Shown here: in pieces, positions 1 through 54,028 of the stretch
Position numbering within the stretch: the stretch's first letter is position 1
How the letters are laid out: each line of letters starts with the position of its first letter
DNA from: a virus
Strand: one strand, 5' to 3'
DNA: 54,028 nt
Virus record (IMG/VR): IMGVR_UViG_3300017605_000242
Span: 1 to 54,028 of that record
Translations under genes and position numbers: made by a program
Notes under the pieces: generated by a model
What the model was told of the DNA's origin: nothing
Seen by the model: only the letters and a program-made list of their open reading frames with translations
The model's database searches: none

Positions 1-159
1 ACTAGGGTATTGTTCTTCTTGTAGGGCAAAACGAACCGAGAAGCAAGCGGGAACCGGGATCACAAGAAGATTGAAAACTCAATAGGGCTAGGCGAAGCGG
101 CACACGCTAAGAAACAGTTGCTAGGGTACACGGCAGGCGTGAGGCTCATAAGACCTAGG

Positions 160-376
160 AGCGATTGTAGGTTCTCAAGCTGAAAGAACCTTCACACGAA
201 GTACGGCAGGTAGCGTTGCGAAGCCACCCAACCGTTAAGGTCACGCTAGTTGATGGTGATCGGCTGTAGGTCCGAAAGTCCCTACGGCTTGGCAAGTGCG
301 GGTAACGCGAATGGTCAGACAGGCTGGTTAAGATGCCAGACACGCTGAAGATTGGTTCAACTCCGATCCCTGCCAC
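160..376 (+). ncRNA. Structured RNA leader, copy 1, with tRNA-like 3' end
   Basis: Non-coding stretch directly upstream of the first DUF932 gene. Visible helices: AGGTTCT 169-175 with AGAACCT 185-191; GGCAGG 205-210 with CCTGCC 369-374 (long-range closing helix); GGTCA 239-243 with TGATC 257-261; GCTGTAGG 263-270 with CCTACGGC 281-288; TGCG 297-300 with CGCG 306-309; CTGG 324-327 with CCAG 336-339; GATTGG 350-355 with CCGATC 363-368 closing a TTCAACT loop. The last hairpin is a canonical T-arm (T54 T55 C56 A57 A58) and runs straight into the closing helix, giving a 12-bp acceptor/T stack followed by an unpaired A375, as in tRNA. The same helices, with compensatory changes, recur at 53457-53657, which is strong evidence for a conserved RNA fold. 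Function unknown. Conserved sequence continues upstream to about position 8. Confidence 0.8.
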
Positions 377-427
377 GCAAGACAGGCCGCACAAGCGGCC
401 ACTCGATCCCTTGGAAGGGGAAAACAA

Positions 428-1495
428 ATGTCCGCAGAGACGATGACCTGGCTCCGTAACAACATCCGCATTGGCTACACCAGCCAAGACGGTCCCGCAT
501 GGTGGGCCGCTGAGAACCACATGACTGACGGTTCGCACTTCAGCGGGCCGGTTCCGATCGAAGAGATTCGTAAGGTTCTCTCGGTTCCGCTGGTGGAAGC
601 CAGTCAGGTTCAGGCCATCTACACTGGTGCGAACGGTGAGTCAAGCATCGCCACCAACAGCAACATGAAGGGCATCGTTCGTCAGGACACTGGCCACCTG
701 ATCAAGGTCTTCAGTTCCGGCTACCGTATCCACGGATACACTGAGTTCCTTCTTAACAAGGCCGCTCGTGTGCTTGACACGCACTCGTCAGACCTTACCG
801 CCAAGAGCGTTGGCCTTCTTCGCAATGGCGCTCAGGCTTGGCTTCAGATCAGGCTGAGCGATTCCTTCGAGGTTGGCGGATTCGGGTATGTCCCGTTCCT
901 GACCGCAGCCACCAGCGCTGATGGTTCCCTGGCTTCTCAGTGGGGCATCGGCTTTGACGCCGCTGTGTGTGACAACACGCTGAGCGCCGCTCTTCTTGGC
1001 GCTCTGTTCACGAAGAAGCTCAAGCACACGGCCAACAGCGACACAGCGGAGACTGACAAGGCCATCCGCGAAGCGCTGAACATCCTGTTCACTAGCTCTG
1101 ACGCTTTCAGCCAGTCCGCTGAGATGCTGATGAGCCTTCCCGTCACTGAGGCTCAGTGGAACGAGTTCCTGAACGAGACTGTTCCGGTTCCCGAAGTCAA
1201 GGAAGGCAAGCGCGGAAGCCGTGGCGCTACGATCGCCACGAACAAGCGCGCTGAGCTGACTGACCTTTACTTCACTGACGCCAAGGCCGCGCCGTGGAAC
1301 GGTACGGCGTTCGGAGTCTTCCAGGCCGTCAACACCTGGCAGACGTGGAACGGCGTTGTTCGTGGCGCTGACGGTGGCCGCGTGGAGCGCTACCACTCCA
1401 ACATGATCGATGGCACCACGGAAGCGCGCGACACTGACACGCTGAACGTGCTTGGCCGCGTGCTTGGCCGTGACCTTCTGAAGGTCGGTGCCTGA
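428..1495 (+). CDS. DUF932 family phage/plasmid-like protein, copy 1
   Basis: 355 residues starting MSAETMTWLRNN, with a strong ribosome site (GGAAGGGG) nine bases before the ATG. The N-terminal motifs (W-WAAENH-TDGSHFSGPVP, then GESSIATNSNMKGI and SGYRIHGY) match what I know of the DUF932 / TIGR03299 family, which is widespread in phages and plasmids, is expressed early and has no settled biochemical role. The gene sits immediately behind the structured RNA leader and is followed by a perfect 11-bp hairpin, so it looks like its own transcription unit. A near-identical second copy begins at 53706. Family assignment is fairly sure; function is unknown. Confidence 0.85.
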   Translation: MSAETMTWLRNNIRIGYTSQDGPAWWAAENHMTDGSHFSGPVPIEEIRKVLSVPLVEASQVQAIYTGANGESSIATNSNMKGIVRQDTGHLIKVFSSGYRIHGYTEFLLNKAARVLDTHSSDLTAKSVGLLRNGAQAWLQIRLSDSFEVGGFGYVPFLTAATSADGSLASQWGIGFDAAVCDNTLSAALLGALFTKKLKHTANSDTAETDKAIREALNILFTSSDAFSQSAEMLMSLPVTEAQWNEFLNETVPVPEVKEGKRGSRGATIATNKRAELTDLYFTDAKAAPWNGTAFGVFQAVNTWQTWNGVVRGADGGRVERYHSNMIDGTTEARDTDTLNVLGRVLGRDLLKVGA

Positions 1496-1874: not shown

Positions 1875-1940
1875 GGATCACATGGTGAAGCCAGCGCGGA
1901 ATACGCCGCGCTGGCTGAAGGTTCGATTCCTTCTGATTCG
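1875..1940 (+). ncRNA. Possible minimal tRNA-like RNA element
   Basis: Four nested or adjacent features: GGATCA 1875-1880 can pair with TGATTC 1934-1939 (one G:U); GCCAGCGCGG 1890-1899 pairs perfectly with CCGCGCTGGC 1906-1915 around loop AATACG; then GAAGG TTCGATT CCTTC 1917-1933 is a perfect T-arm adjoining the closing helix. There is no D-arm or seven-base anticodon loop, so it is not an ordinary tRNA. It may simply be a terminator next to a chance T-arm, but its similarity in layout to the element at 2907 makes it worth listing. Confidence 0.35.
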
Positions 1941-2906: not shown

Positions 2907-2995
2907 GGGGTTGAAGGGCTTCGACGGTAGCGAACGGCCAGGCTCACGCCTGGCCTAGTAGCTAGCGGACACCAGTTCGATTCTGGTCAACTCCA
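2907..2995 (+). ncRNA. tmRNA-like RNA: tRNA-like domain only
   Basis: 89-nt RNA. Acceptor stem 2907-2913 (GGGGTTG) pairs with 2988-2994 (CAACTCC), with a G:U at the third pair (2909:2992) and A2995 as discriminator; G3:U70 with A73 are the alanyl-tRNA synthetase identity elements of tRNA-Ala and tmRNA. GGCTTCGACGG at 2917-2927 matches the D-loop region of tmRNA. GGAC 2967-2970 precedes a perfect T-arm ACCAG TTCGATT CTGGT (2971-2987), as in tmRNA. Between them are a short TAGC/GCTA helix (2928-2931 with 2961-2964) and an 8-bp hairpin (2936-2943 with 2948-2955, loop TCAC) where a normal tmRNA has over 250 nt of tag frame and pseudoknots. CCA is not encoded (CTTA follows). No even seven-base anticodon loop can form, so it is not a plain tRNA. 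Confidence 0.75.
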
Positions 2996-53456: not shown

Positions 53457-53657
53457 AGATTCTCAAGCTGAAAGAATCTGACACACGGTGAGTAACGTTG
53501 CAAAGCCAACCAACCGTTAAGGTAGTGCTACTGGAAGGCTACCGGCTGTAGGTCCGAAAGTCCCTACGGCTTGGCAAGCGCGGGTAACGTGAAGGGTGAG
53601 ACAGGCTGGTTAAGATGCCAGACACGCTCAAGCTTGGTTCAACTCCAAGCCTCACCA
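53457..53657 (+). ncRNA. Structured RNA leader, copy 2, with tRNA-like 3' end
   Basis: Same fold as 160-376 with compensatory changes: AGATTCT 53457-53463 with AGAATCT 53473-53479; GGTGAG 53487-53492 with CTCACC 53651-53656; GGTAG 53521-53525 with CTACC 53539-53543; CGCG 53579-53582 with CGTG 53588-53591; GCTTGG 53632-53637 with CCAAGC 53645-53650 around the identical loop TTCAACT. The central GCTGTAGG...CCTACGGC hairpin and its loop are unchanged between copies. A53657 is the unpaired discriminator-like base. Leads into the second DUF932 gene. Confidence 0.8.
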
Positions 53658-53705
53658 CGCAAAACGCCACACTGGCTACGCACCCAATGAAAGAGGGTAT
53701 GCAAA

Positions 53706-54028
53706 ATGTCCGCAGAGACGATGGAATGGCTACGGAACAACATTCGCATTGGCTACACCAGCCAAGACGGTCCCGCATGGTGGGCTGCTGAGAACCACAT
53801 GACCGATGGTTCGCACTTCAGCGGGCCGGTTCCGATCGAAGAGATTCGTAAGGTTCTCTCGGTTCCGCTGGTGGAAGCCAGTCAGGTTCAGGCTATCTAC
53901 ACTGGTGCTAACGGTGAGTCAAGCATCGCCACCAACAGCAACATGAAGGGCATCGTTCGTCAGGACACTGGCCACCTGATCAAGGTCTTCAGTTCCGGCT
54001 ACCGTATCCACGGATACACTGAGTTCCT
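53706..54028 (+). CDS. DUF932 family protein, copy 2 (cut by window end)
   Basis: 107 codons present, ATG 53706 behind GAGGGTATGCAAA. The protein matches copy 1 at all but one visible residue (TMEWL instead of TMTWL). At DNA level the first ~210 bases show scattered silent changes, while the last 119 bases are identical to 632-750. The rest lies outside the window. Confidence 0.85.
   Translation, partial: MSAETMEWLRNNIRIGYTSQDGPAWWAAENHMTDGSHFSGPVPIEEIRKVLSVPLVEASQVQAIYTGANGESSIATNSNMKGIVRQDTGHLIKVFSSGYRIHGYTEF

Follow-up and report, generated by a model that had tools for sequence, protein, structure and literature searches.

The window analysed here, an IMG/VR virus record of 54,028 bases taken at its full length, raises the question of what kind of RNA lies in front of its two DUF932 genes. 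The record encodes a portal, a terminase, a tape measure protein and a DNA polymerase A, for which the polymerase of Actinoplanes phage phiAsp2 is the best relative (39%), and the virus is, judging from its sequence, probably an actinophage. Two copies of a leader RNA, at 203-380 and 53485-53662, are 85% identical, and each precedes one DUF932 gene (ATG at 428, with PF06067 E 2e-26, and at 53706), where the earlier note had placed them. Compared without gaps (95-191 plus 203-383 against the second copy), they differ in 43 of 278 columns. The coding copies at 426-725 and 53704-54003 are 96% identical, compared with 85% for the RNA leaders, which would fit either a recent gene conversion or an assembly that ended within a repeat, and it is probable that the record is incomplete. 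The predicted fold of the DUF932 protein (pLDDT 82) had no significant match in the PDB (best E 0.008, TM about 0.2), and for that reason no mechanism was drawn from the protein. Only two true tRNA genes in the window pass RF00005 (30972-31044 and 31224-31297). The leader RNAs and the genes behind them comprise the following parts.

105 to 163, plus strand: upstream structured arm, CGCT (105-108) pairing with AGCG (160-163), with an inner CACG/CGTG hairpin
169 to 191, plus strand: hairpin AGGTTCT/AGAACCT with loop CAAGCTGAA; compensatory pair 171-189
205 to 210, plus strand: 5' strand of the acceptor-like helix, GGCAGG, pairing with 369-374; three compensatory pairs
213 to 308, plus strand: structured insert closed by GCGTTGC (213-219) and GTAACGC (302-308); three compensatory pairs, none broken
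315 to 348, plus strand: D-arm-like stem TCAG/CTGA with an inner GGC-TGGTTAAGAT-GCC (322-337) bearing a D-loop-like GG; compensatory pair 316-347
350 to 368, plus strand: T-arm GATTGG-TTCAACT-CCGATC with canonical T-loop; one compensatory and one one-sided change
369 to 374, plus strand: 3' strand of the acceptor-like helix, CCTGCC, stacked directly on the T-stem (6+6 = 12 bp)
375 to 377, plus strand: unpaired A-C-G 3' of the acceptor (tRNA positions 73-75)
385 to 400, plus strand: hairpin GGCCGC-ACAA-GCGGCC in the leader, separating the element from the Shine-Dalgarno sequence
413 to 420, plus strand: Shine-Dalgarno-like sequence GGAAGGGG
428 to 1495, plus strand: DUF932 gene, 355 amino acids (PF06067 E 2e-26; phrog_1221 E 1e-61)
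53457 to 53479, plus strand: copy 2 hairpin AGATTCT/AGAATCT
53487 to 53656, plus strand: copy 2 acceptor, GGTGAG (53487-53492) pairing with CTCACC (53651-53656) and enclosing insert, D-arm-like stem and T-arm
53632 to 53650, plus strand: copy 2 T-arm GCTTGG-TTCAACT-CCAAGC
53657 to 53659, plus strand: copy 2 unpaired A-C-G
53706 to 54028, plus strand: second DUF932 gene, truncated by the end of the record, 96% identical to 428-725

Comparison of the two copies over a structure of 53 pairs reveals nine compensatory pairs, three one-sided changes and no broken pair. When the differences were redistributed among positions carrying the same base in 20,000 rounds, double changes averaged 0.56 and nine were never reached; the structure is thus real, in agreement with the selection for structure claimed in the earlier note. 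The acceptor-like helix 205-210/369-374 carries three of the compensations, while a structure-free control of 60 column shuffles reached two at best. Thermodynamic stability is unremarkable (z of -0.9 and -1.8 for the two copies), and the case for the fold rests on covariation, not on folding energy.

Four of the five covarying helices proposed in that note were retained, but the fifth, TGCG/CGCG, is incompatible with the better supported pairing 213-219/302-308 (GCGTTGC/GTAACGC), which carries a G-C to A-T compensation and takes its place. One covarying helix was added to them, at 315-318/345-348, where TCAG/CTGA becomes TGAG/CTCA. The 12-bp acceptor/T stack (6+6), the T-loop TTCAACT and the unpaired A are present in both copies, just as had been described. 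The conserved structure begins further upstream, at about 105, making the RNA larger than the interval 160-376; the arm at 105-163 is kept in both copies and shows two double changes in the two-sequence consensus fold. Within the insert, whose structure is known from the two copies alone, helices pair 228-230 with 290-292, 239-244 with 256-261 and 262-270 with 281-289, and the minimum free energy folds of the two copies agree in this part (213-308). The D-arm-like region has an alternative pairing (CTGGT/GCCAG), and GGTTAAGATGCC is met elsewhere in tRNA D-arms. For copy 1 the long-range acceptor pairing is the sole option; in copy 2 GGTGAG is present twice (53487 and 53594), giving two possible acceptors.

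A match to a known class in Rfam would have removed the novelty suggested by the earlier note. In Rfam 15, neither DUF932 leader reached the gathering score of any family, and matches at E up to 10 did not exceed chance; this holds for the tRNA (RF00005), tmRNA (RF00023) and mascRNA-menRNA (RF01684) models. A freshwater-2 match at 385-430 was dismissed as chance-level (19.5 bits against a gathering score of 49.9). Searching 50,697 phage records with the window RNA by blastn returned zero matches, exact-pattern scans of IMG/VR for the insert and for conserved parts of the RNA found nothing, and the insert had no further instance in the phage and IMG/VR searches run, which may have lacked GenBank and IMG/VR records close to the window. 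The pattern GGTTAAGATGCC..GGTTCRA was found in 21 stretches, which were set aside: those spaced 40-42 nt are of tRNA type and mostly overlap called tRNA genes where checked, and those with two other spacings resemble coding sequence. With regard to Y RNA and YrlA, no TROVE (Ro60) protein was matched among the ten window proteins scanned.

Relatives of the leader were also sought through the protein. A single-protein DUF932 scan of IMG/VR found no homologues, and a scan with a DUF932 alignment yielded 59 loci. On the DUF932 loci of other phages, a covariance model built from the two window copies (R1) did not turn up the large RNA a second time. It returned two short matches, each made up of the T-arm end and A-C-G, in which acceptor and T-arm nearly adjoin, and the reading of those loci that these matches prompted led to the recognition of a much smaller element.

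This mini element, about 42-46 nt in size, is composed of an acceptor of 5-6 bp, a linker of about 11 nt with a D-loop-like GG, a T-arm with canonical loop and an unpaired A-C-G/A, and is followed by a hairpin, a Shine-Dalgarno sequence and a start codon; one example reads GTCCCG-aagggtataa-CCGTGG-ttcaact-CCACGG-CGGGAC-acg. It lies directly upstream of genes in many actinophages and AT-rich prophages, and 241 distinct copies were collected. In the Mycobacterium phages Cuke, Send513 and Indlulamithi such elements lie about 50 nt before start codons. A first descriptor, with essentially zero background in shuffled genomes, identified copies other than tRNAs, ten of them in Indlulamithi and six in Cuke, on the coding strand throughout; its fixed 6-bp acceptor misses the 5+7 bp type, and it was later relaxed.

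The elements occupy a large share of the gaps between annotated genes. Across six annotated phages, 57 of 80 intergenic gaps hold one, as against 0 of 1,600 shuffled gaps. Among gaps of at least 55 nt in four of them, the counts were 13 of 15 for Indlulamithi, 11 of 14 for Cuke, 8 of 14 for Fowlmouth and 10 of 16 for MrMiyagi (together 42/59, with 0/1,180 in shuffles), and the Streptomyces phages Endor1 (8/12) and Zemlya (7/9) contributed 15 of 21 gaps, with 0 of 420 in shuffles. As a control inside genes, 7 of 592 windows of 120 nt hold an element. The distance from the acceptor 3' end to the start codon has a median of 46 nt. Among 42 mycobacteriophage leaders, all have a Shine-Dalgarno-like motif, 38 have a hairpin of at least 6 bp between element and Shine-Dalgarno sequence (shuffled mean 6.7), and 32 of the 42 elements share the A-C-G trinucleotide of the window RNA.

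A covariance model of the mini element (R2) matched 15 times in Send513, 11 in Indlulamithi, 10 in Cuke, 10 in Fowlmouth (some partial), 9 in Endor1 and 7 in Zemlya, and gave a strong match in a phage that shares 39% identity with the window phage in its DUF932 protein. phiAsp2 has at least one element, with a linker of about 45 nt. Two linker/loop patterns retrieved 94 and 65 stretches from IMG/VR, the first set ranging in GC content from 0.26 to 0.56. DNA resembling two element-bearing Streptomyces phage regions is present in 109 and 130 GenBank records, figures that count similarity of the region and not elements. Matches of the linker pattern in bacterial genomes are mostly chance (6 of 47 paired), and the real ones are Flavobacteriia/Bacteroidia contigs, probably prophages. 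Ten AT-rich IMG/VR contigs carry elements before genes, several with 2-4 near-identical copies of the form TCCCA-AACGGTTTTTT-GGAGYGG-TTCGATT-CCRCTCC-TGGGA-ACAA. This AT-rich type also occurs in Chryseobacterium, Elizabethkingia and Flavobacteriaceae genome contigs, and the element is therefore not limited to actinophages. When Rfam 15 was applied to ten mini-element loci, L255 and L376, only true tRNAs reached gathering score, and no prior description of such phage elements was found in Rfam 15 or in the mainly open-access literature searched; as far as we could find in these sources, the family of tRNA mimics is previously undescribed.

The pairing of the mini elements was assessed on picks made by linker and loop sequence alone, with no acceptor demanded. 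An acceptor of at least 5 bp is formed in 47 of 61 distinct picks, compared with 2.7% when the 5' flank of another pick is substituted, and for a second linker type it is paired in 40 of 48. In an alignment of 69 sequences, 93.7% of cells are paired, against 52.3% after shuffling and at most 50.7% in slid registers, double-change cells number 342, compared with 98, and the covariation score is 0.99, compared with 0.17; these rows were selected with a pairing rule, which makes the alignment table alone partly circular, whereas neither the gap test nor the flank swap has this weakness. The acceptor/T stack measures 11-12 bp in nearly all elements even as its division between T-stem and acceptor shifts (7+5, 6+6, 6+5 and 5+7), so what is conserved is a length, as of a ruler, and not a sequence.

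Linker and T-loop also vary in concert. In the linker subtype xxxGGCAGNCA, the N (linker base 9) and the final base of the T-loop (60) combine as A-T in 91 rows, G-C in 10, C-G in 7 and T-A in 2, with G-T in 4 and other combinations in 2; these 110 Watson-Crick pairs among 116 compare with a shuffled maximum of 91 in 20,000. Nineteen of the 20 rows with a differing loop base stay matched, and no other linker position of this subtype tracks the T-loop changes. The base after the GG is likewise associated with loop base 59 (C with G 116 times, T with T 102 and T with C 9). This covariation of linker and loop bases indicates that the linker contacts the T-loop in the manner of a tRNA elbow. The linker GG was demanded in some collections; it was not in the gap test, where it recurs. 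In a pattern-selected set, position -1 is mostly A (75 of 107), and the acceptor is followed by A in 82 of 107 and then C in 89 of 107. Bacterial pre-tRNAs usually have U at -1.

The window leaders share most of this anatomy. Both copies have the 11-12 bp acceptor/T stack with a contiguous 3' strand (6+6), a T-loop of the form TTCRANN and A-C after the acceptor (TTCAACT, ACG), and the layout of hairpin (385-400), Shine-Dalgarno sequence (413-420) and ATG (428) is that of the mini elements. The GG within TGGTTAAGAT lies in a D-loop-like context, as does the linker GG of the mini elements, and GGT with loop base C is also found in mini elements of Cuke and Indlulamithi. What sets the leaders apart is the linker: in place of about 11 nt with a GG they have an insert of 139 nt, with the GG inside the D-arm-like stem. 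Since this insert separates acceptor from T-arm, R2 is blind to the window leaders and scores neither as a member, its best hit covering nothing but the copy 2 T-arm (E 0.9). Long linkers also precede DUF932 genes elsewhere (64 nt in Cuke, about 80 nt in Fowlmouth and MrMiyagi). We read the window RNA as a putative mini element, the most elaborate of them, enlarged by a folded insert of 139 nt; it may instead be convergent with the mini elements rather than related to them.

Two further tRNA-like elements were identified in the window by descriptor match.

1875 to 1939, plus strand: tRNA-like element with acceptor GGATCA/TGATTC and T-arm GAAGG-TTCGATT-CCTTC
2907 to 2995, plus strand: tmRNA/tRNA-like element with GGGGTTG/CAACTCC (7 bp) and T-arm ACCAG-TTCGATT-CTGGT (5 bp)

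The element at 1875-1939 sits in the gap after the gene at 1561-1872, has a hairpin in its linker and is weaker than the others. That at 2907-2995 scores 24.0 bits with the tRNA model (gathering 29) and 19.8 bits with tmRNA_permuted. Because both lie in early gaps, the phage seems to use several tRNA-like elements. The tmRNA-like ends of 2907-2995, GGGGTTGAAGGGCTTCGACGG and CGGACACCAGTTCGATTCTGGTCAACTCCA, enclose about 40 nt with a hairpin and no tag reading frame. On the plus strand at 1875-1975, a sigma-70-like promoter (TTGACA near 1946, GATAAC near 1970) follows right after the first element. Gene-end hairpins with a shared loop, CCAGCCAGG-AATACG-CCTGGCTGG and CCAGCGCGG-AATACG-CCGCGCTGG, occur at 1515-1545 and 1890-1916 and are terminator-like without a U run.

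What could such elements do? The earlier note had offered an RNase P/Z processing site, a regulator of DUF932 or a new phage RNA class. The last is favoured by the wider evidence, and the decisive factor is not DUF932 itself: in other phages, genes of this family mostly lack such an RNA upstream, and the tRNA-like element precedes many genes unrelated to DUF932. The same evidence favours the processing-site option, with cleavage itself a prediction. We think it reasonably likely that the elements are RNase P sites that split polycistronic phage mRNA and leave a structured 5' end on the downstream gene. Host RNase P would take the tRNA mimic in the leader for a precursor tRNA, measure a fixed distance along the acceptor/T stack from the elbow formed by the T-loop and the two D-loop G's, and cut directly 5' of the acceptor, that is, before G205 and before G53487. 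The cut would separate the upstream message from the downstream gene in the polycistronic transcript, and the downstream mRNA would then begin with a base-paired, 5'-monophosphorylated, tRNA-like end, followed by the hairpin and the Shine-Dalgarno sequence; such an end should shield the mRNA from 5'-end-dependent decay. In the window, where the linker would have expanded into a folded domain, that domain may tune cleavage or serve as a binding site for a ligand or a protein.

RNase P RNA reads the bases that follow the acceptor (A, C) in a pre-tRNA. The enzyme holds the elbow in a clamp and works as a ruler of fixed length (PMC4919913); in mascRNA, an elbow built from the T-arm and two conserved G's is crucial for recognition by RNase P (PMC11693755), and bacterial RNase P cuts a 24-nt minihelix in vitro (PMC6614837). 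The anatomy of the elements favours RNase P because the 11-12 bp ruler, the GG/T-loop elbow and the 3' A-C are features that this enzyme uses. Counting against it are the predominance of A, not U, at position -1, the alternative acceptor strand of copy 2, and the order of parts in the window RNA (acceptor, insert, D-arm-like stem, T-arm), which differs from that of tRNA.

Other readings account for part of these observations. RNase Z, alone or with RNase P, might cut after the unpaired A, freeing a small RNA as in mascRNA and leaving an mRNA that starts with C-G and the hairpin. CCA is not encoded, as in RNase Z substrates, and a hairpin directly downstream would cap the new 5' end, but the A is mostly followed by C, and C74 is generally unfavourable for RNase Z; we regard this as somewhat unlikely. 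Viral tRNA mimics with stabilising or factor-recruiting roles exist, and the phage structures might stay uncut, stabilising the mRNA or tuning translation by recruiting EF-Tu, an aminoacyl-tRNA synthetase or the ribosome. Their position, always right before Shine-Dalgarno sequence and start codon and with a second hairpin, would suit such a role. The mini form, however, has neither an encoded CCA end nor an anticodon arm, and ruler, elbow and A-C match the needs of RNase P (PMC4919913), which renders it unlikely that the mimics act uncut.

We similarly give a low probability to the window RNA being an unrelated phage RNA, riboswitch-like or trans-acting, that has a tRNA-like end and controls DUF932 specifically. 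Both window copies precede DUF932, the DUF932 linkers of Cuke, Fowlmouth and MrMiyagi are among the longest, and the insert is conserved and specific; set against this, other DUF932 genes lack the RNA, and the layout of 12-bp stack, TTCAACT, A-C-G, hairpin and Shine-Dalgarno sequence is the one that mini elements have ahead of genes of other kinds. An origin from degenerate tRNA genes, or from attachment sites derived from tRNAs, is highly improbable: attP sites and decaying tRNA genes do contain T-arm and acceptor halves, but a genome has 10-15 copies of the element, all with covarying stems of their own and at a fixed position before a gene, they have no anticodon arm, and decay would break pairs rather than compensate them. 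Attachment-site, terminator and pseudo-tRNA readings were rejected on copy number, position and compensation.

Among the known systems that come close are mascRNA/menRNA (RF01684), which form the tRNA-like ends of MALAT1 and NEAT1: like the mini elements, these RNAs have a reduced D region and two G's that make the T-arm elbow, and RNase P cuts mascRNA on its 5' side, splitting a longer transcript (PMC11693755). Two mini elements are weakly similar to RF01684 (23.0 and 22.3 bits against a gathering score of 42.5). In contrast with the phage elements, which are intergenic mRNA leaders in many copies per genome, mascRNA belongs to the 3' ends of human nuclear lncRNAs, and it retains an anticodon-like stem where mini elements have only the 11-nt linker. 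tmRNA (RF00023, RF04321), which is also processed by RNase P, has an acceptor and a T-arm, and a large insert separates the acceptor strand from the T-arm; two other mini elements resemble it weakly in Rfam, and tmRNA-like ends are seen in the window at 2907-2995. The phage elements differ from it in having neither tag reading frame nor encoded CCA, and the window DUF932 leader in its D-arm-like stem 3' of the insert. Since both mascRNA-menRNA and tmRNA are RNase P substrates, these weak resemblances support the RNase P reading. Minihelix substrates show that a short acceptor-type helix suffices for bacterial RNase P in vitro (PMC6614837); they are designed molecules, whereas the phage elements are natural and add an elbow.

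Further tRNA-like genes were observed in phage Mildred21 (NC_042008), at about 73760, 85024, 86434, 91423, 93269, 94914 and 112902, where ARAGORN missed them; some are annotated as tRNA and others are not. Their order is acceptor, immediate anticodon arm (e.g. CTGG-CTACGAA-CCAG), GG-bearing D-loop-like stretch and T-arm, and they look like D-armless or permuted tRNAs. A Ro RNA-binding protein gene (80769-82421) lies among many tRNA genes in the same phage.

In animal mitochondria, polycistronic RNA is cut by RNase P and RNase Z at tRNA folds that lie between the genes. The proposed phage marks are alike in being tRNA folds placed between genes as cut marks, and differ in that the mitochondrial ones are functional tRNAs whereas those of the bacterial viruses are anticodon-less mimics. 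We put forward, tentatively, that many phages of several host phyla may punctuate polycistronic mRNAs with a dedicated class of minimal tRNA mimics, depending on host RNase P for gene expression, and that one such mark in the window may have gained a large folded domain, possibly acting as a switch over the cut. The elements fill 57 of the 80 gaps tested, that is, stretches of roughly 80-100 nt between small genes that annotators have left blank. If the proposal is true, they would represent an independent viral counterpart of mitochondrial tRNA punctuation, and at 42-46 nt would rank with the smallest substrates that RNase P has in nature, while still having a clear elbow. Furthermore, if phages carry at least ten RNase P sites per genome, RNase P would be a central processing enzyme of phage gene expression.
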